Shown in pieces: positions 51,814 to 62,916 of a DNA stretch of 64,000 nt. The position numbers and the translations under genes were made by a program. A model generated the notes under the pieces. That model was given only the letters and a program-made list of their open reading frames with translations. It had not been told where the DNA came from and did not search any database. Numbering within the stretch: position 1 is the first letter of the stretch; every line of letters begins with the position of its first letter. Source of the stretch: Hymenobacter sp. IS2118. GTDB taxonomy: Bacteria; Bacteroidota; Bacteroidia; Cytophagales; Hymenobacteraceae. The stretch is from positions 1 through 64,000 of the forward strand of contig NZ_JNLX01000084.1 of assembly GCF_000715495.1 (NCBI RefSeq). Direction: 5' to 3'.

Positions 51814-53847
51814 CTACAAGGCTGCCAGAGCTTCCGCCACGCTATAAACCGGCGCCAAGCAGGCCCGGTTCCGGCAAATGTGGATGGCCGTGCGCCCGGC
51901 GGTGCCGGACTTGAGGTGCCGGAGCAGGGGGAGGGCTGAACCTGTTTTGGTGCCCGCTATTACCGTATCAAACAAAAAATGCCGGCTTAGTTCCTGACGA
52001 AAAGCGCGGGCCTCCGGGCCCATGATGGCGATTTCGGCACCCGGCCGCAGCTGGGCTGCGTACAGTGCGGCCCAGTTGGTGAGGTGCTGCGGCTCTTTCA
52101 CCACCAGCTGGCGCACCTGGGCCAGCATGGCGGCAGCCAGGTCCGAGTAGCGGGCGTTTTCCAGGTGGCGGCCCAGGCGGTGCAGGTTGTGCGCCATCAC
52201 GGAGTTCGATGCGGGAATCACGTTGTCGAACAGCTCTTTTTTGCGGGCGATGAGCGGCTCGGCACGGCTGTCGGTGTAGAAAAACTGCGTTTCGGCAGAG
52301 TCGAAAAAGTTATTCAGCACGTACTCCGTCAGCGCTTCGGCTTCGCGCAGCCACGTTTCCACGAAGCTCACTTCGTAGAGGCTGATATAGGCCTGAATGA
52401 CCAAGGCGTAATCTTCCAGGAAGCCGTTGATGCTGGGGCGGCCGTTTTTGCAGGTCCGGAACAGGCAGGCGCCCTCCCGCAGGTTGGCCTCGATGAAGCG
52501 GGCGTTGTGCTCGGCCATTGCCAGGAATTCCGGCTCGGCGAAGGCCCGGTAAGCATCGGTGAGGCCCTGAAGCATGAGGGCGTTCCAGCCGGTCAGGATT
52601 TTGTCATCGAGGCCGGGGCGGACGCGGGTGGCGCGCACAGCCATAATTTTTTGCTTCCAACCCGCTACCAGTTCCGCCACCGCGCCGGACGTTAGCTGGT
52701 GGGAGGTGGCAAAGTCCTCTTTGGTTTGGCGGCGGTGCAGAATGTTGCGGCCGTGCTCCCAGTTGCCGGCCGCCGTGCAGTTGTAATAATCGGAGAAAAG
52801 CGGCTCCTCGTCTCCAATAATTCCGCGCAGCTCGTCCTTGGTAAAGACGTAGAACCGGCCCTCCTCGCCCTCACTGTCCGCATCGAGCGACGAATAAAAG
52901 CCGCCTTCGGCATTGGTCAGCTCCAGGCGAATGAATTCCACGGTATCGTACACAACGTCGCGAAACAGCTCGTTCTGCGTCGCCTGAAACGCCTCGCTGT
53001 AGAGGCTCAGCAGCTGGCCATTGTCGTACAGCATTTTTTCGAAGTGCGGCGCCAGCCACTCCGCATCCACCGAATAGCGGGCAAAGCCGCCGTGCGCTTG
53101 GTCGTAGATGCCGCCCCAGGCCATTTCGCGCAGCGTTAGCACTGTCTGGTCCAGCAGCACCTGGCTGCCGCTCACGACGTGCGCCCCCAGCAAAAAGCGC
53201 CAGATGCTGGGCATGGGAAACTTCGGTTCTCGGTTCATGCCGCCCCGCTCGCGGTCAAATTGCACTTCCAGGTTGTAGGTCAAAAGCTTGAATTCCTCAT
53301 CTGAAACCCCACCATCTGCCGGTTGCCCCTGATGCTTTTGCAGCTCGCTACCGCCGATGACTTCCATAAACCGCTCGGCCGATTGCTCTAACTCCGCCCG
53401 GTGTTCGCCGGCATAGGCTTCGCCGATGTTCTGGAGCAGCTTCACCCAGTTGCCCTGGGGGAAGTAGGTGCCGCCATAAAAGGGTTTGGCGGCCGACGTC
53501 AGGAATACGTTGAGGGGCCAGCCGCCCTGCAAGCCCATGGCGTGCAGCGCATCCATGTAAATCTGGTCCACGTCGGGCCGTTCTTCCCGGTCTACTTTGA
53601 TGCAAACGAAATTGGCGTTCATGACCGCCGCAACGGCTTCGTTTTCGAAGGATTCCCGTTCCATTACGTGGCACCAGTGGCAGGCCGCGTAACCGATGCT
53701 CACCAGAATAGGCTTTTGCTCCGCCTGCGCCCGGCCCAACGCCTCCGGACCCCACGGGTACCAGTCCACAGGATTATAGGCGTGCTGCTGCAAGTAAGGA
53801 CTGGTTTCCTGAGCAAGACGGTTAGGCAACTGCGAAGCGTGGTCCAT
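51814..53847 (-). CDS. thioredoxin-fold DUF255 protein (YyaL/SSP411 type)
   Basis: 677 residues. The start [20 protein letters not shown] and the CxxC centre [15 protein letters not shown] are diagnostic for the N-terminal thioredoxin-like domain, and the remainder is the alpha/alpha-toroid part with [20 protein letters not shown] and [20 protein letters not shown]. The family occurs in all domains of life and is related to human spermatogenesis-associated protein 20. Its reaction is not established. No signal peptide, so it should be cytoplasmic. Ten bases separate its stop codon from the start of the priA frame. Confidence 0.93.
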
Positions 53848-53870: not shown

Positions 53871-53899
53871 CCAAACCCGGCCATTGTGGCCGGGTTTGG
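53871..53899 (-). terminator. terminator-like hairpin after the GSCFA gene
   Basis: CCAAACCCGGCC and complement around a 5-base loop. Downstream of the GSCFA gene on the minus strand. A short word repeat of the 13.9 kb type lies right beside it (about 53927-53955). Confidence 0.65.
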
Positions 53900-53985: not shown

Positions 53986-56580
53986 TCAAGCGGGTTTCGC
54001 CGGTTTGCGGGGAGCCTTAGGCTTCGCTGCTACTGGTTTCTCAGAAGCGACTGGTTTGGCTTTGGCGGCGGGTTTGGCTTTAGGCTTTGCCACGGGCTTG
54101 GCTTTGGCGGTGGGCTTGGCTTCAGGCTTTGCCGCTGGTGTGGCTTTAGGTTTAGCCACAGGCTTAGGCTTGGCGGCAGAAGCGGGTTTCTTTGCTGTCG
54201 GAGCCTTTTCTGGTGCTTTTACCTCGGCCACGGGAGGCGTCGGCTTAGCCTCTGGTACTGGAGTTGGCGCTACAGTTTTCTTAGTAGCCATCTTCTTGGG
54301 AGCGGGCACTTTTTCAGAAAGCGTGTTTTCCGCTGGCGCTACTTTTGTGGCAGGAGTACGTTTTGCGGGTGCTTTAACGGGCGCGTCCGGTTCTATCAGG
54401 GATGCCGAAGAGCCCGTCATGCGGCCCGCCGCCACCTGCGTGCGGAGCTGGAGCGCATCGGCCACCGGAATAACGGGCGTATCGACGGCTGGCTTTTCAG
54501 CTCTGGCTCCGCTCACTGCCCGCTTTGCCCGATTGGAGCGCCGCGCCGGAGCGGCTGCCGGCGCCTCGGCCGAAACCGCAGTCTCGGCCGGAGCAGCGGC
54601 TGCTTCAGTTGCGGCAGGCTGATTTCCACGCTGATTGCGGTTTCGGGCTGGCGCATCTGTTGCTTCTACAGCACCGGAAAGGTCTTCCGCATTGCCATTC
54701 GTCGCGGGCGAGGTTTCGATAACGGGGCGCGGAGCCTCGGTGCCGGTTGCTGCGCCGTCGCCGGCTGGCCCGCTGCCTTTTCTGCCGCGGTTGCGGTTGT
54801 TACGAGACTTTTGAGGAGCGGCGGCTGGTGCGTCCAACGCCGTTGCCGGAGCCTCAGCCTGCGGTTCATTCGCTGCCGAAACCGCTGCTACGTCCTCAGC
54901 CGATATAGCCGAATCTGGAGCTGCGGTAGAACCGGCCGCAAACAACTCCTTCCGCTGCACGCGCCCAGTCTCATTGCGGCGCCCGCCTCTTTGCACCGGC
55001 GCCGGGTTGGTGCCCGGAGTCTGATGGTCTTCCGATTGGTCGCTGGCAGTGGTGCCAAGGTCGTCCGCATTCGCTTCCTGCAAGCCAGTGCCAGATTCGT
55101 CTTCCGGCATGGTCTCGCCAGCGGCTAAGCGTAGTGCGTTTTTGCGGGCGGTTCTTTTGGCGCCGCCCCGCGAGCGGCGCTTCTTCTTTTTCGCGGTTTC
55201 ATCCGTTCCCGCTTCGTTGTTCGCGGCTTGCTCCAGGCTTTCTTCGGCCTGGCTCAGCTCAGATGGCACAAACACGACCGGCAAATCAGTAGCAGTGGTT
55301 TCCGACTGGTCCTGAACCAGAGAAGCAGCCACTTGAAACTGCTCGTTTTCGGAAGGCGTCTGCGGTTGGCCTTTGCCTCGGCCATCGCGGCGGCCACGTT
55401 CGGGCCGGGCCGGCCGCGCCGCGCGTTGCGCCCGGAATTCTTCCGGCGACAAGCGTGGCGGCCGCCCTTCAACAAGCGCCGCCGGGGGCATAAGCGGAGC
55501 CGTGGCAACATCGGTGCGGGCAGGCCCGGCATCCTCGCCGATGTCAACCCGCTCTTCATCGTCCTCCAGAACAACGACGGGTTCCGGCTGCTTCGGTACC
55601 GGCAAAGCCATTATTCTGGCACGTACATCGTTCAGCTCGGTGGTTACCTCCACTCTGCGCAGGCTCAGCTGCTCCAGCTTTTCCATGGTGTTCACCAGGA
55701 ACTGCCTGTGCTCGGGGGCCCCTTCGTGCAACGGGCGGTGGCCCAGCGACTGCCGAACGGCCGCCCATTCCTTCCGGAACCGACCAAAATCGGCATCGAA
55801 ATACGTTCGGGCAAACTTATCCCAAACGTATTCCTCCGCTACTTCCGACGGATGCAGCATGTCGGAAGCGTAAAAGCGGTAGTCGCGCAAATCATCCACC
55901 AGCAGCTCGTAGGCCGGGAAATAGGCCACGCCCGGCAGCAAGTCACTCACAATATGAGTCGCTAATCGCAGCACCGATTTGCTGACCGAGTTCAGCGGCA
56001 AGGTGTCTTTCAGGTGCCGTACCGGGCTCACCGTCACCACAAATCGCAGATTGGGGTTGATGCGCCGTAGGTATGCGTGCGTTTCGGCCAGGGCATTGAT
56101 GACTTCGTCCGGCGTCAACAGCTCCTTCACAAAAAGGTCGGCGGGCTGCTTGTGGCAGTTGTTCACCAGCTCGCCGGTTTCGCGCAGGCGGTAGGTCCAG
56201 GCGGTGCCCAGCGTCAGCAATACCACGTCGGCTTGCCGCAGAAAATCGCCGGTGCGCCGCACCAACTCCTGAATGTGCAGGAGCAAGTCCACCGGCGAAT
56301 CGGCCCCGATGCTGCCGTGCAGGTCGTAGCTCTGCCAGCGCCCGCGGGCATACACCAGGTGCTGCTGCCAGTCTACGTCTTCGCCGGCCGCCGCCCGCAG
56401 CAACCGCGCCAGCGCCAAGGGCTGAAACACGGTGCCAAAGGGGTTTACCAACGTTTTGACCTTGTTGGCCGCGAGCCGCGCACCGATGCTATCGGCGAAG
56501 CAGGAGCCCACGGTAAGCACCTGCGCGGTGCGTGCTAGCTGGTCAGTAGCCGGGGCAATTGGTATTTCAGTTCTAAACAT
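53986..56580 (-). CDS. GSCFA-domain protein with long basic disordered tail
   Basis: 864 residues from MFRTEIPIAPATDQL. Residues about 1-320 are a GSCFA domain, an SGNH-like fold named after TVGSCFADSIG; VNPFGTVFQPLAL, LTLGTAWTYR, FVVTVSPVRHLKDTL and SDMLHPSEVAEEYVW are its blocks. Stand-alone members have roughly this length. The remaining 540 residues are low complexity: Glu/Arg/Gly-rich at first (RPERGRRDGRGKGQPQ), Ala/Pro-rich, and finally Lys/Ala/Pro repeats such as KPKATPAAKPEAKPTAKAKP, like histone H1 tails. No signal peptide. The tail could bind nucleic acid or acidic polymer. Confidence 0.8.
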   Translation of the reverse strand: MFRTEIPIAPATDQLARTAQVLTVGSCFADSIGARLAANKVKTLVNPFGTVFQPLALARLLRAAAGEDVDWQQHLVYARGRWQSYDLHGSIGADSPVDLLLHIQELVRRTGDFLRQADVVLLTLGTAWTYRLRETGELVNNCHKQPADLFVKELLTPDEVINALAETHAYLRRINPNLRFVVTVSPVRHLKDTLPLNSVSKSVLRLATHIVSDLLPGVAYFPAYELLVDDLRDYRFYASDMLHPSEVAEEYVWDKFARTYFDADFGRFRKEWAAVRQSLGHRPLHEGAPEHRQFLVNTMEKLEQLSLRRVEVTTELNDVRARIMALPVPKQPEPVVVLEDDEERVDIGEDAGPARTDVATAPLMPPAALVEGRPPRLSPEEFRAQRAARPARPERGRRDGRGKGQPQTPSENEQFQVAASLVQDQSETTATDLPVVFVPSELSQAEESLEQAANNEAGTDETAKKKKRRSRGGAKRTARKNALRLAAGETMPEDESGTGLQEANADDLGTTASDQSEDHQTPGTNPAPVQRGGRRNETGRVQRKELFAAGSTAAPDSAISAEDVAAVSAANEPQAEAPATALDAPAAAPQKSRNNRNRGRKGSGPAGDGAATGTEAPRPVIETSPATNGNAEDLSGAVEATDAPARNRNQRGNQPAATEAAAAPAETAVSAEAPAAAPARRSNRAKRAVSGARAEKPAVDTPVIPVADALQLRTQVAAGRMTGSSASLIEPDAPVKAPAKRTPATKVAPAENTLSEKVPAPKKMATKKTVAPTPVPEAKPTPPVAEVKAPEKAPTAKKPASAAKPKPVAKPKATPAAKPEAKPTAKAKPVAKPKAKPAAKAKPVASEKPVAAKPKAPRKPAKPA

Positions 56581-56626
56581 CGAAGCAAAAATAGCCCTTA
56601 ACCTGTAGTTTAGGCCGAGGGGTAAT

Positions 56627-56658
56627 AAAAAAGCCCTGCCAGAAGGCAAGGCTTTTTT
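56627..56658 (-). terminator. terminator of the rpsF-rpsR-rplI operon
   Basis: AAAAAAGCC and GGCTTTTTT form the outer stem, with TGCC/GGCA inside. It lies 20 bases after the rplI stop on the minus strand and before the GSCFA gene start. Confidence 0.85.
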
Positions 56659-56678
56659 ACTTAATTATTGAGTACTAA

Positions 56679-57122
56679 CTACTCAGCTACAACGCGGAAG
56701 TTAACCGTGTGTTTAACTTCCTTGTGCAGGTTGGCCGTTGCGGTGAAGTCGCCGGCAGCCGCTGGCTCCTGGTCGAACGACAAACGCTTGCGGTCCACAT
56801 CCACACCTTTTGCTTTCAGCGCTTCGGCCAATTGCAGGGTGGTTACGCGGCCGAAGATTTTGCCGCTTTCGCCGATTTTGGCGGGAATTTCCAGGAATGC
56901 AGCACCAATCTGGTCGGCAATGGCCTGGGCATCGCCCTTGATTTTGTCGGCTTTGTGAGCCGCCTGGCGCACGTTCTCCGCCGTGATTTTTTTATTGGTC
57001 TTGTCGGCCAGCATGGCCAAACCCTGCGGCAACAAGAAGTTGCGACCGTAGCCCGATTTCACGGTCACGATGTCGTTCTTGTAGCCGAGGCCCTTAACGT
57101 CGTCTTTGAGGATAATTTCCAT
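56679..57122 (-). CDS. rplI: 50S ribosomal protein L9
   Basis: 147 residues, the standard length. MEIILKDDVKGLGYKNDIVTV and the KSGYGRNFLLPQGLAMLADK block are the N-terminal rRNA-binding domain signature, followed by the long connecting helix and the C-terminal domain (KIFGRVTTLQLAEALKAKG). L9 binds 23S rRNA at the base of the L1 stalk. It is the third gene of the operon. Confidence 0.97.
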   Translation of the reverse strand: MEIILKDDVKGLGYKNDIVTVKSGYGRNFLLPQGLAMLADKTNKKITAENVRQAAHKADKIKGDAQAIADQIGAAFLEIPAKIGESGKIFGRVTTLQLAEALKAKGVDVDRKRLSFDQEPAAAGDFTATANLHKEVKHTVNFRVVAE

Positions 57123-58418: not shown

Positions 58419-59765
58419 ATGAATAGCATTCGACTTCGTACGTTACCTCAACTGTTGCTGGCACTGTTCCTTACGTTTGCCGGCACCCAACACGCTGCCG
58501 CTCAACAAGCCGGTGCTGGCGATGTAAACAAAACGGGCGTAGTTCCCGGCGCTACCGACGGTGCTACGGCCGCCATAGCCGTTGACCCGGCAGCGGCCGG
58601 GGGCGGGGGCGGCGATGCCGCGGCCATCGCTGCAGGTGATGCGCTTTTCAAAAATAATTGTGCCCAGTGCCACGCCGTCAACGAAGTAGTAGTTGGCCCT
58701 GCCTTGTCTGGTATTACCAAGCGGCGCACCATTTCCTGGTTGATTCCGTGGATTAAGAACTCGAGCAAAGTAGTAGCCAGCGGCGATGAATACGCGGTGG
58801 CCATCTACAACAAGTACAATAAGCAGCAGATGCCCTCTTTTGCCCTTTCGGATAAAGAGGTTACTTCAATTCTGGCCTGGGTAACCTCGCAGGAAGGTGC
58901 TGCTCCCACAGCGGGCGGCGTAACCGCTGGCAACGCGGCAGCAACTGATGGCACAGCCGCCGATGCTGGTGCCGAAGCTGGCGCCGGTAAGTACGTTGAC
59001 ATTCTGCTGATTGTCCTCGTAGTGGTTCTGATTGTGCTGGTTGTAACGCTCGTTATCATCGGTAACCTGATGAAAGATGTGCTGCGGGGCCGCAAAGACC
59101 TTGATGGCCGGGACGTTGAAATCCTGGAGCAGCGCTTCGACTGGAGCAAAATGTACCGTTCGCCCATGCTGCGCGGAATTGTAGGGGCAGTATTCGGCAT
59201 CGTGCTGGTGTATGCCGGGGTGCAAAGCGTGATGGCGGTGGGCTTGTCCCAGGGTTATCAGCCTACCCAGCCCATCGCCTTCTCGCACAAATTGCACGCT
59301 GGCGAACACCAGATTAACTGCGCCTACTGCCACACGTCGGTTTACAAGAGCAAGTCGGCCAACATTCCTTCGGCCAACATCTGTATGAACTGCCACTCGC
59401 AGATTAAAACGGAGTCGCCGGAAATCAAGAAGATTTACCGTGCCATCGAGCGCAAGCAGCCCATTCAGTGGGTGCGCGTGCACAACTTGCCAGACCTGGC
59501 TTACTTCAACCACTCGCAGCACACGCAAGTAGCGGGCCTGCAGTGCCAGACCTGTCACGGTCCCATTCAGAACATGGAGGTTGTGTACCAGTACTCGGCT
59601 CTCACCATGGGCTGGTGCATCAATTGCCACCGCGAGATGCCGGTGAACGCCAAAGACAACGCATATTACGACAACCTCGTGAAGCTGCACGACACCAAAA
59701 ATGCTGGTGCTCCCTTCACCGTGTCGTCGAACGGCGGCACCGAGTGCTCGAAGTGCCACTACTAA
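58419..59765 (+). CDS. actA: alternative complex III subunit A, multihaem cytochrome c
   Basis: 448 residues with a signal peptide (LLLALFLTFAGTQHAAA). Six CXXCH motifs are present: CAQCH at 81-85 in an N-terminal monohaem cytochrome c domain, then CAYCH, CMNCH, CQTCH, CINCH and CSKCH in the C-terminal half, which form the pentahaem domain known for ActA. Two membrane segments lie between (DILLIVLVVVLIVLVVTLVI and GIVGAVFGIVLVYAGV). The complex oxidises quinol and passes electrons to a cytochrome or oxidase. actB and actC follow on the same strand. Confidence 0.93.
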   Translation: MNSIRLRTLPQLLLALFLTFAGTQHAAAQQAGAGDVNKTGVVPGATDGATAAIAVDPAAAGGGGGDAAAIAAGDALFKNNCAQCHAVNEVVVGPALSGITKRRTISWLIPWIKNSSKVVASGDEYAVAIYNKYNKQQMPSFALSDKEVTSILAWVTSQEGAAPTAGGVTAGNAAATDGTAADAGAEAGAGKYVDILLIVLVVVLIVLVVTLVIIGNLMKDVLRGRKDLDGRDVEILEQRFDWSKMYRSPMLRGIVGAVFGIVLVYAGVQSVMAVGLSQGYQPTQPIAFSHKLHAGEHQINCAYCHTSVYKSKSANIPSANICMNCHSQIKTESPEIKKIYRAIERKQPIQWVRVHNLPDLAYFNHSQHTQVAGLQCQTCHGPIQNMEVVYQYSALTMGWCINCHREMPVNAKDNAYYDNLVKLHDTKNAGAPFTVSSNGGTECSKCHY

Positions 59766-59847: not shown

Positions 59848-62800
59848 ATGAAGTACTGGAAAGGAATTGAGGAACTAGAAAACGCCCCGGAATTCATGCA
59901 ATCAGCTTTTGCTGAGTTCATGCCGGTCAAGGAGAGCCACGAGAGCAAAGATGCTGCCTCGGCTCCTCGTCGCGACTTCCTCAAACTAATGGGTTTTGGT
60001 GTGGCTGCGGCTACCTTGGCTTCCTGTGAAGCCCCGGTTCGCAAGGCCATTCCATACCTGAACAAGCCCGAGGAGATTGACCCGTCCATCTCCAACTTCT
60101 ACGCTTCCACCTACTTCAACGGCTCCGACTACAACGCCGTGTTAGTGAAGACCCGTGAGGGCCGCCCCATCAAGCTGGAAGGCAACCCGGAGTCGCCCAT
60201 CACCAGCGGTGGTTTGTCGGCGCGGGCCCAGGCAGCGGTGCTGAGTTTGTACGACGGTGGCCGCTTGCAGAATTTTGCCATCAAGTCGGGCAACACCCAC
60301 GAAAAGGTGGAGCAGGCAGCCCTCGACCAGGCAGTACGCGCCAAACTGGCTGCTACTACGGGCCGCATTGCCATTGTTTCGCCCACCATTATCAGCCCTT
60401 CCACCAAGCGGGCAATTGCTGATTTTGCCGCGCGCTACCCCAACACCACGCACGTCATGTACGACGCGCAATCGGTAACGGGGCTGCTGCAGGCTAACGG
60501 TGGTGTTGTGCCAGGCTATAATTTCAGCCGGGCCAATGTTATCGTGAGCCTTGGTGCTGACTTCCTGGGTACCTGGATTTCTCCGGTTGAGTACAGCCGG
60601 CAGTACGCCATGACCCGCAAGATTAGCCGGGAGAAGCGCTCCATGTCACGCCACTACCAGTTCGAGACGGCGATGTCGCTCAGCGGCTCGAACGCCGACA
60701 TTCGAGTGCCAGTGAAGCCTTCGGAGATGGGTGCCGTAGCTGTGGCGCTGTACAACGCGGTAACCGGTGGCGGCACTTCCGCCTACAAAAATGATAAACT
60801 CACTCAGGCCGCTCGCGACCTGACTGCCAACCGGGGTGCCAGCCTCGTGGTATCGGGTTCAAACGACCCCGCCGTTCAGGCCTTGGTAGCGGCCATCAAC
60901 CAGGCGCTGGGCAACGTGGGCACTACGGTTGACCTCAACGCTCCGAGCAACGTGCGCCAGGGCGACGACGCCCGCATGGTCGCGCTGGTGAATGACATGA
61001 ATAATGGCCGCGTTGGCGCAGTTATTTTCTACAACGCCAACCCTGTTTACAACCACCCACTCGGTCAGAAAGTAAAGTCAGGTATCGCCAAAGTGCCCCT
61101 GACCATCTCGTTGAATGACCGGTTAGACGAAACCGGCACGCTTTGCCAATACGTTGCTCCCGACAGCCACTGGCTGGAATCGTGGAATGACTACGAGCCC
61201 AAGCGCGGCTTCCTGAGCTTGGCGCAGCCTGCTATCACGCCGCTTTTCTCCACCCGTCAGGGCCAGGAAACGCTGTTGCGTTGGGCTGGCAACAATACTA
61301 ACTATTACAAATACCTCCGCGCTACGTGGCGTGCCATCACCCCAACTGACTCAGCCTGGGACAAGGTGGTGCACGATGGCGTGGCTACCGGCACGGCTCT
61401 GGCTGCCGCACCGGCTATGATGGGCGCTGCCATGAGCCCAGCCGCTGCAATTGCTCAGATTGGCCAAGGCCCAAAGGCTGGCGCTAACGCGGTTGAGCTG
61501 GCACTGTATGAAAAAGTAGGTTTGGGTGCCGCTGGTTGCGAATCCAATAACCCATTTCTACAGGAATTGCCCGACCCGGTTTCGAAAGCTACCTGGGGCA
61601 ACTACGTGGCGGTGCCCCGTAAAATGGCGGTTGATAACCAGTGGGAGCAGGGCGACGTTATTAAAGTAACGGCTAATGGCTATTCCATCGAACTGCCCGT
61701 TCTGATTCAGCCGGGCCAGACCAATGGTACCGTAAGCATAGCGCTGGGCTATGGCCGCACCCTGGCTGGCAAAGCCGGTAATTTGGTAGGTGCCAATGCT
61801 GCCCCGCTGGCCATGGCTACGGCCAACGGCCTGATGTTTAATAACGTGGTGACGCTGGCAAAGACCGATGCCACCTCACCCATTGCCCAAACGCAGACGC
61901 ACCACACCATCATGGACCGCAAGCCGGTGGTGCAGGAGAACACGCTGGCGCAGTACATCAAAAACCCCAGTGAGGTAACCGAGTACGAGAAGGTTTCTAC
62001 TCCTGACGGTTTGGAGAAGCCCAACAAGGTTTCGCTGTGGCAGGATTACCAGTACAACAACCACCACTGGGGCATGGCCGTGGACCTCAACTCGTGCATC
62101 GGGTGCGGCGCGTGCGTGATTGGCTGCCAGACTGAGAACAATATCGCCGTAGTGGGCAAGCAGGAGGTAATTAACCGCCGCGAAATGCACTGGATGCGCA
62201 TTGACCGCTACTACAGCTCGGACCACCACAAGGACGAGTTTGAAACGGTGGGCAAAGTAGGGACTTACACGGCCATGGAAGACCCTTCGGACAACCCGCA
62301 GGTGATTTTCCAGCCGATGATGTGCCAGCAGTGCAACCACGCACCTTGCGAAACGGTGTGCCCCGTACTGGCTACCACGCACAGCTCGGAAGGTCTCAAC
62401 CAAATGACCTACAACCGGTGCATCGGTACCCGCTACTGCGCCAACAACTGCCCGTACAAAGTGCGGCGCTTCAACTGGTTCTCGTACTACTCCAACGAGA
62501 AGTTCGAAACCGTGAACGGCCACATGTTCACCGACCTGGGCCGCATGGTGCTCAACCCCGACGTAACTGTTCGGGCCCGTGGCGTGATGGAGAAATGCTC
62601 GTTCTGCGTGCAGCGCATTCAGTTGGGCAAGCTCGAAGCCAAGAAGCAGAAGCGCCGTCCCATGGATGGGGAGATTGTTTCGGCTTGTGCCCAGTCCTGC
62701 CCCACCGAAGCTATCGTGTTCGGCGACATGCGCGACCCCAATAGCCGCATCAGCCAACTGTTGCGCCGCGAGGATGGCGAGCGGGCTTTCCACGCCTTGG

Positions 62801-62916
62801 AATCCATCAACGTCCAGCCGAACGTTACTTATCTGACCAAGATTCGGAATGCGGAATCGGAGTTCTTTGCTAAGGAAGAGCCAGAGTACATCAAGTACGA
62901 CGAGGCCAAATCCTAA
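59848..62916 (+). CDS. actB: alternative complex III subunit B, molybdopterin-type/iron-sulfur fusion
   Basis: 1022 residues. A Tat-like motif (RRDFLKLMGFGVAAATLAS) lies about 40 residues in, the variant position usual for ActB. Residues to about 720 form a molybdopterin-oxidoreductase-like domain that in this family carries no metal cofactor. The rest is an iron-sulfur protein with CIGCGACVIGC, CQQCNHAPCETVCPV, CIGTRYCANNCPY and CSFCVQ plus CAQSCPTEA, ligands for four clusters. It passes electrons within the act complex on the periplasmic face. Confidence 0.95.
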   Translation: MKYWKGIEELENAPEFMQSAFAEFMPVKESHESKDAASAPRRDFLKLMGFGVAAATLASCEAPVRKAIPYLNKPEEIDPSISNFYASTYFNGSDYNAVLVKTREGRPIKLEGNPESPITSGGLSARAQAAVLSLYDGGRLQNFAIKSGNTHEKVEQAALDQAVRAKLAATTGRIAIVSPTIISPSTKRAIADFAARYPNTTHVMYDAQSVTGLLQANGGVVPGYNFSRANVIVSLGADFLGTWISPVEYSRQYAMTRKISREKRSMSRHYQFETAMSLSGSNADIRVPVKPSEMGAVAVALYNAVTGGGTSAYKNDKLTQAARDLTANRGASLVVSGSNDPAVQALVAAINQALGNVGTTVDLNAPSNVRQGDDARMVALVNDMNNGRVGAVIFYNANPVYNHPLGQKVKSGIAKVPLTISLNDRLDETGTLCQYVAPDSHWLESWNDYEPKRGFLSLAQPAITPLFSTRQGQETLLRWAGNNTNYYKYLRATWRAITPTDSAWDKVVHDGVATGTALAAAPAMMGAAMSPAAAIAQIGQGPKAGANAVELALYEKVGLGAAGCESNNPFLQELPDPVSKATWGNYVAVPRKMAVDNQWEQGDVIKVTANGYSIELPVLIQPGQTNGTVSIALGYGRTLAGKAGNLVGANAAPLAMATANGLMFNNVVTLAKTDATSPIAQTQTHHTIMDRKPVVQENTLAQYIKNPSEVTEYEKVSTPDGLEKPNKVSLWQDYQYNNHHWGMAVDLNSCIGCGACVIGCQTENNIAVVGKQEVINRREMHWMRIDRYYSSDHHKDEFETVGKVGTYTAMEDPSDNPQVIFQPMMCQQCNHAPCETVCPVLATTHSSEGLNQMTYNRCIGTRYCANNCPYKVRRFNWFSYYSNEKFETVNGHMFTDLGRMVLNPDVTVRARGVMEKCSFCVQRIQLGKLEAKKQKRRPMDGEIVSACAQSCPTEAIVFGDMRDPNSRISQLLRREDGERAFHALESINVQPNVTYLTKIRNAESEFFAKEEPEYIKYDEAKS

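Follow-up and report, generated by a model that had tools for sequence, protein, structure and literature searches.

A conserved, clade-specific tail with a near-invariant basic block extends the GSCFA protein of Hymenobacter

The gene considered here lies in the first 64,000 nucleotides of contig NZ_JNLX01000084.1 of Hymenobacter sp. IS2118 (this whole stretch is referred to below as the window) and encodes an 864-residue protein: an N-terminal GSCFA domain that is followed, in the same reading frame, by a tail of about 525 residues. The tailed GSCFA protein is real, conserved and clade-specific, and it is a more specific object than had been held in an earlier note made from the letters of the window. 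Its main feature, which that note missed, is a basic block of ~24 residues within the tail (KKKKRRSRGGAKRTARKNALRLAA), with a near-invariant core (KKKKRRSRGGAKRTARK) at residues 464-480. The domain matches PF08885 at 277 bits against a curated cut-off of 25, covers profile positions 2-237 of 237, and is the single match of its kind in the whole genome; no other Pfam family is listed for the 864-residue protein at E≤1. The nearest named relative found is that of Hymenobacter terricola, with 91% identity across the first 310 residues. GSCFA proteins are normally about as short as the earlier note stated (~320 residues): 69 of 80 named loci encode 311-342 amino acids, and the other 11, all of them Hymenobacter or Solirubrum, 662-912. 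At 864 residues the protein of the window falls outside the customary single-domain length of ~310-345, a length that is customary for the family, not defining.

The basic block stands out from everything around it. In an alignment of 66 proteins, from which frame-jumped, run-on, split and short loci are omitted, mean column identity at residues 461-480 is 0.81 with full occupancy; the other 20-residue bins between 361 and 840 lie at 0.10-0.43, mostly at 0.22-0.34. The block is present in all 72 genomes of the genus that were read (71 fetched, plus that of the window): it can be read in frame in the window and in 68 loci, of which one is the second contig piece of G095; L060 and L061 have it intact in a different frame, and in L063 a frame jump interrupts it. 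Its double arginine falls at a variable index, 391-498 among 68 proteins, and thus at varying distance from the domain. A profile search places the block at one site in the whole genome, the GSCFA gene. In an order sample of 194 genomes, in which the tailed sister genera designated g94 and g96 are not represented, the motif profile at E≤0.01 recovers 13 genomes among the matches listed, all 13 of this genus; the same motif has no match in plasmids, and a comparison of the whole protein with viral contigs yielded 11 pattern matches, none of them a relative. An explanation of the block at the level of RNA was considered and is not favoured, because synonymous change is about as frequent in the block as it is in the domain.

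The block is embedded in a fixed order of charge, namely acidic linker, basic block and basic C-terminus, which is kept in 64 of 65 tails (62 of the genus, including that of the window, and three from sister genera; the contig-end-cut L100 is omitted from these counts). L068 lacks the block by the pattern used and is left out of the layout counts. Among the remaining 64 tails, the region ahead of the block is always net negative, with a mean of -19 per 100 residues; a 22-residue stretch of the block or of its divergent form carries at least +10 (mean +11.8); what follows the block is close to neutral on average; and the final 40 residues are without exception net positive. After shuffling, these stretches have the corresponding sign in ~45% of cases, and the strongest 22-residue window averages +6.0, as against +11.8. 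The earlier suggestion that the enzyme is tethered to an acidic polymer consequently holds for the proximal tail and fails for the block and the C-terminal end, which are basic in all 64. Where they are defined, ratios of nonsynonymous to synonymous substitution rates (dN/dS), calculated for 16 distinct pairs in which some dS values are saturated or undefined, range over 0.02-0.11 in the domain, 0-0.08 in the block and 0.12-0.30 in the rest of the tail. Block and enzyme domain are thus under similar constraint, and the values for block and remaining tail together mean that the tail is read as protein and constrained. These figures also bear on the notion that the tail serves chiefly as an entropic spacer or to aid solubility, with no specific partner, and that the block is incidental to it. 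Such a role would accommodate the strong divergence of the tail in sequence, in length (264-654 residues, n=65) and in net charge, but it sits badly with a block whose dN/dS is near that of the domain and with a charge order kept almost without exception; we regard it as very unlikely.

The GSCFA gene is found in all 120 genomes of the genus that were searched, with an open frame of at least 600 amino acids in 114 of them; in the other six, all of them among the 71 that were fetched, the frame is interrupted by frame jumps (five) or by a contig end (one). The fusion is accordingly one gene kept in Hymenobacter, which was the first thing that the earlier note proposed to check. In a sample of the phylum, 74 of 296 genomes have a GSCFA gene: three belong to this genus and encode 710-892 amino acids, and the 71 outside it are all short (308-386 amino acids). 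Within the same family, among the genomes listed, frames of 740, 680 and 660 amino acids occur in g94 and g96, and frames of 326-397 in the genera g2, g3 and g95. A tree of 63 GSCFA domains, with subsets of 40 tailed and 23 short proteins, has all 40 tailed forms on one side of one branch (support 100/96); the domain tree is also the basis on which Solirubrum is placed with g96. The tail is clade-specific, and its distribution fits a single origin. The order rpsF-rpsR-rplI-GSCFA is common to tailed and short forms, so that the tail would have been gained at a fixed locus or, less likely, lost elsewhere.

That the tail might be an artefact has to be weighed explicitly. A sequencing join of two genes was considered and rejected: in genomes G018, G061, G062, G082 and G091 the tail or its remainder lies in a different frame. 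In G095 the GSCFA gene is split by contig ends. Frame jumps inside the tail, at differing places, are found in 7 of the 71 fetched genomes of the genus (loci L060, L061, L062, L063, L064, L105 and L122); in an eighth, L065, the tail has no jump and the frame continues into the next gene. A homopolymer of at least 7 lies at the jump only in L061, and L060 has several jumps, one of them close to the start, which suggests assembly error in that genome. A separate tail gene in short relatives was likewise not found: the motif profile matches listed for the order sample are confined to this genus, and in five short-GSCFA relatives (L071-L075) 76-368 nt separate the GSCFA gene from the first match of the next conserved gene, a gap that leaves no room for a tail of several hundred residues. 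What the earlier note thought would undo its reading, a tail encoded separately in relatives and joined to the domain by a sequencing error, is thus not what the relatives show. A further possibility, that the tail arose neutrally as GC-rich low-complexity DNA grew by slippage and read-through, draws on the low complexity itself, on many changes of length, and on the frame jumps and the run-on just described. It is largely refuted by the results on selection and conservation (the frame of at least 600 amino acids in 114 of 120 genomes, tail dN/dS of 0.12-0.30, the conserved motif, and no long frame in any of the 71 genes outside the genus), and we find it scarcely credible. The genus-wide frame, a tail dN/dS well under 1 and the internal conserved motif put the tail beyond chance and sequencing error.

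The tail is almost certainly disordered, as judged from an AlphaFold2 model of the full-length protein. In ten-residue blocks, the mean predicted local distance difference test score (pLDDT) is at least 82 for residues 11-340 and falls to 32-55 over residues 341-864, except for 65-76 at 371-390; a short possible helix at 379-387 is the only one in the modelled tail. The earlier note was right about a long in-frame tail and put it somewhat too long (540 residues; about 525 are counted from the model boundary at ~340). The Arg/Gly, Ala/Pro/Glu and Lys/Ala/Pro blocks that it described are there. On average the 65 tails are 14% Lys and Arg, 14% Asp and Glu, 21% Ala, 14% Pro and 1% aromatic, with no cysteine. 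Within 162 kb of this genome, a small sample made up of the window and 8 of 20 other stretches (the remaining 12 being contigs under 1.4 kb), the GSCFA gene is the only one of 129 mechanically called open reading frames (ORFs) with a low-order stretch of at least 200 amino acids, and a search of the genome for relatives of the tail gave two weak matches (E 0.11 and 0.23).

The description of the tail as resembling histone H1 holds for composition only. By eye, the Lys/Ala/Pro run at its end is typical of the subclade of the window and of some others, and many relatives end instead in KRRxRPPRKKP-type sequence; no linker-histone match is listed for the protein at E≤1, and the tail is modelled as disordered. 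Likeness to AT-hooks is found in the relatives: [KR]RxRP is present in 36 of 65 tails (2.5 by shuffling), RxRPPRxK in 21 (0.01) and the RGRP core in 18 (0.8). As a separate observation, a small protein of the same genome (L233:12681-13211, minus strand) ends in a Lys/Ala-rich, H1-like run of ~50 residues.

The N-terminal part is very probably an enzyme of the SGNH superfamily, an esterase or acyltransferase, to judge from its predicted fold. The alignments behind the models comprise the window's own sequence together with 49 and 41, respectively, of the 80 named loci, which makes 50 and 42 rows; the model of residues 1-340, built on 42 aligned sequences, is an alpha/beta fold with a mean pLDDT of 94.4. 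Its best Protein Data Bank (PDB) matches by Foldseek are SGNH esterases and O-acetyltransferases, including EstL5 and PatB, with 13 matches at E≤0.001. EstL5 is matched at E 1.7e-5 with a template modelling (TM) score of 0.37 by query length and 0.57 by target length, and a VIA comparison with Ape1 aligns 195 residues with Z 13.1 and a root-mean-square deviation of 3.5. A search of the PDB with the domain sequence gave a best E of 0.79, which is not meaningful. In SGNH enzymes the catalytic serine follows strand 1, and an Asp-x-x-His motif lies near the C-terminal end of the fold. In the model, Ser26 of the GSC motif lies between the first long strand (20-25) and a helix (27-38), and Asp240-x-x-His243, a candidate block V dyad by the superfamily pattern, ahead of a late helix. 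At the level of sequence and secondary structure these positions fit the SGNH rule. Gly25, Ser26, Cys27, Phe28, Asn141, His143, Asp240 and His243 are among the columns invariant in 50 of 50 aligned GSCFA sequences. The SGNH-like model, together with the positions and invariance of Ser26, Asp240 and His243, makes catalysis likely. The protein thus shares with its family the full-length domain match, the family-wide invariant residues and the gene neighbourhood of short genes in related genera, and differs by the ~525 residues modelled as disordered. The available text of a 2022 review (PMC9487903) lists GSCFA as an SGNH family without known activity or solved structure.

What would a tail of this design do for such an enzyme? 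We propose, at a little short of an even chance, that the disordered tail tethers a cytoplasmic SGNH esterase or acyltransferase to a polyanion, most probably RNA or DNA. (As in the earlier note, no signal peptide is seen by eye in the N-terminus MFRTEIPIAP..., without a predictor run.) A disordered C-terminal tether would have been gained in the ancestor of Hymenobacter and its closest genera. It would constitute a patterned polyampholyte, made of an acidic linker, an RGG-containing block of ~+12, a fast-evolving spacer and a basic C-terminus. The block and the basic end would bind the polyanion and so concentrate the enzyme near the nucleoid or a ribonucleoprotein, and the acidic linker would keep the block off the enzyme, moderate binding and weaken non-specific contacts. 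Taken singly, these propositions are not equally secure. Binding of some polyanion by the tail is rather probable from its charge; that the partner is nucleic acid, as the earlier note also supposed, is plausible from the conserved block of at least +10 and the basic C-termini, and we put it at evens; that the tail forms condensates is unlikely. Three things make RNA or DNA the favoured partner: the RGG core, the AT-hook-like ends seen in relatives, and an analogy with another bacterial enzyme, the Rho protein of Bacteroides thetaiotaomicron (BtRho).

According to the available text of PMC13269538, BtRho has, in an otherwise variable disordered region, two short conserved basic motifs on which, jointly, both RNA-dependent condensation in vitro and clustering in cells depend. 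The likeness is that of an enzyme of the same phylum with a long region that varies in length and sequence and retains a few short conserved charge-dense motifs, and the GSCFA tail, a predicted disordered region with one such motif, is of this type. The differences are a different enzyme, KE-rich and prion-like subdomains, several motifs, and RNA-dependent condensation that is shown, in the same text, for BtRho only. The genome of the window has its own Rho (L253, G000:C149 ~109794-110015, outside the 162-kb sample), a 788-amino-acid open frame with a long low-complexity N-terminal region; this region is rich in RRE and NDQPRE-type repeats, is unlike the GSCFA tail and is not matched by the block profile. 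Oskar offers an analogy only, that of an SGNH-clan domain in an RNA-associated protein: its OSK domain is without catalytic residues, whereas GSCFA keeps Ser, Asp and His, and the rest of the protein is unrelated. OSK structures are absent among the 50 Foldseek matches listed and in the VIA comparison, which is no test of kinship. The OSK domain is listed as RNA-binding in the available text of PMC9487903, and a bacterial contribution to oskar is proposed in that of PMC7250577.

Several observations weigh against a nucleic-acid-tethered enzyme. On the side of the enzyme, the query-normalised TM-scores are low (0.30-0.40 across the 13 PDB matches at E≤0.001). On the side of the tail, total net charge is not conserved (-29 to +38, mean +1.5, +19 in the window; n=65), and the window's own tail has neither RGRP nor [KR]RxRP. 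Pfam AT_hook is not listed at E≤1 for the window or for six tailed proteins, although HMMER filters may lose such short, weak matches, and the block profile has no match in the PDB. A divergent basic RGG patch around KRRKRKRGGRKHK stands in place of the block in Solirubrum, g96 and Hymenobacter sp. 15J16-1T3B, and lysine-rich patches do so in g94; some lineages thus manage without the exact sequence of the block. Nor is nucleic acid the only ligand of basic patches, which bind anionic lipids or acidic proteins as well. Finally, the analogy with BtRho is itself qualified, in that removal of either basic motif alone does not abolish its condensates (available text of PMC13269538).

The most direct competitor to a polyanion tether is a tether to one partner: the block could dock onto a specific protein or onto the surface of the ribosome, with the tail as a flexible arm that brings the esterase to it. 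The block, with ~24 near-invariant residues at variable distance from the domain, does resemble a short linear motif, and its gene lies downstream of rpsF-rpsR-rplI. The same neighbourhood is found in the tail-less L071-L074, however, and in the window a terminator-like hairpin separates rplI from the GSCFA gene; a joint role with L9 is therefore not implied. A charge of at least +10 in 22 residues is, moreover, more typical of polyanion binding, and docking seems to us unlikely, on a par with condensate formation.

The basic regions might instead attach to anionic lipids and so anchor the esterase to the cytoplasmic membrane from the inside, with lipids or envelope precursors as its substrates. 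Tails that are ~1% aromatic and that contain, in the model, a single short helix (379-387) argue against this, and an RGG core and RPPRKKP ends would not be typical of a lipid-binding region. It gains from the many fold relatives of the enzyme that act on envelope sugars or lipids, and from the available text of PMC13298647, in which the GSCFA gene of Tannerella and Porphyromonas gingivalis lies immediately upstream of an alr-like gene called vanT. On balance we hold membrane attachment to be very unlikely.

Returning to the tether to RNA or DNA, its most far-reaching form would be that Hymenobacter and the genera nearest to it have made an SGNH esterase into a possibly condensate-forming enzyme with RNA or DNA as its scaffold, by means of a tail with a ~24-residue RGG motif, the substrate of the enzyme being attached to nucleic acid or made near it. 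We put this forward as a decidedly doubtful conjecture. Were it true, the protein would be a bacterial counterpart of Oskar, though with its catalytic residues retained, and candidate substrates would include acylated RNA, aminoacyl- or acyl-tRNA, and acylated nucleoid or ribosomal proteins. A lineage-specific tail with a near-invariant motif in any case provides a handle on the cellular surroundings of the enzyme and hence on its substrate, and the same gene in the same neighbourhood with and without a tail, divided by one well-supported branch, constitutes a natural experiment. If the block does bind RNA, the Bacteroidota would have, with Rho, two examples of disordered regions that are free to vary save in short charge-dense motifs.

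The coordinates of the gene, its parts and its neighbours are collected in Table 1.

Table 1. The tailed GSCFA gene and its surroundings, in window coordinates
Feature	Position	Strand	Basis
Whole coding sequence, 864 amino acids and stop	53986..56580	minus	ORF reading; ATG at 56580, stop at 53986-53988
GSCFA domain (PF08885), residues 21-256	55813..56520	minus	Pfam 277 bits, AlphaFold2 model, SGNH-fold PDB matches
Ser26 of GSC motif, candidate SGNH nucleophile	56503..56505	minus	Invariant in 21/21 and 50/50 sequences; putative catalytic role
Asp240-x-x-His243, candidate block V dyad	55852..55863	minus	Invariant in 21- and 50-sequence sets
Last two helices of ordered part, within residues 289-325	55606..55716	minus	AlphaFold2 secondary structure
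Acidic proximal linker, residues 341-463	55192..55560	minus	Net-negative pre-block region in relatives; mostly low pLDDT
Conserved basic block KKKKRRSRGGAKRTARKNALRLAA, residues 464-487	55120..55191	minus	Alignment, genus-wide presence, dN/dS
Variable spacer, residues 488-790, with scattered RG/RN patches	54211..55119	minus	Column identity 0.10-0.43 per 20-residue bin; low pLDDT
Lys/Ala/Pro-rich C-terminus, residues 791-864, net +19	53989..54210	minus	Composition count
rplI (L9), conserved upstream neighbour	56679..57122	minus	Pfam and synteny
Thioredoxin-domain DUF255 protein, frequent downstream neighbour	51814..53847	minus	PF03190 and synteny
TATTTTTG, TAnnTTTG-type element 5 nt before ATG	56586..56593	minus	Motif scan of loci
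Terminator-like hairpin between rplI and GSCFA gene	56633..56660	minus	5-pair stem 56633-56647 by scan; longer stem by eye
Terminator-like hairpin after GSCFA gene	53871..53899	minus	13 pairs, 9 GC; consensus match only

The neighbourhood is widely kept: rplI lies upstream in the same orientation in 79 of 80 loci, and the DUF255 thioredoxin gene downstream in 68. A TAnnTTTG sequence, presumably the Bacteroidota -7 promoter element, is found within 60 nt upstream of the gene in 33 of 79 loci (1.9 expected by shuffling) and lies at 5-6 nt in 32 of them; at this spacing from the ATG the mRNA would be nearly leaderless. Terminator-like hairpins on both sides make it possible that the GSCFA gene is its own transcription unit in this genome; 10 terminator-like sites were found in the region, as against 7.6 in shuffles. 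Among mechanically called ORFs in the flanks of loci L153-L232, the neighbours of GSCFA differ by lineage: in Cytophagales-type loci L9 is upstream (a cluster of 27) and DUF255 downstream (a cluster of 36), a gene that we take from its sequence to be AlaS-like is upstream in a cluster of 7, and a presumably ParA/Mrp-like one downstream in a cluster of 17. Farther along the window, on the plus strand, an ORF at 58419-59765 contains several CxxCH motifs and is apparently a multihaem cytochrome c protein; an ORF of 1022 amino acids lies next to it at 59848-62916.

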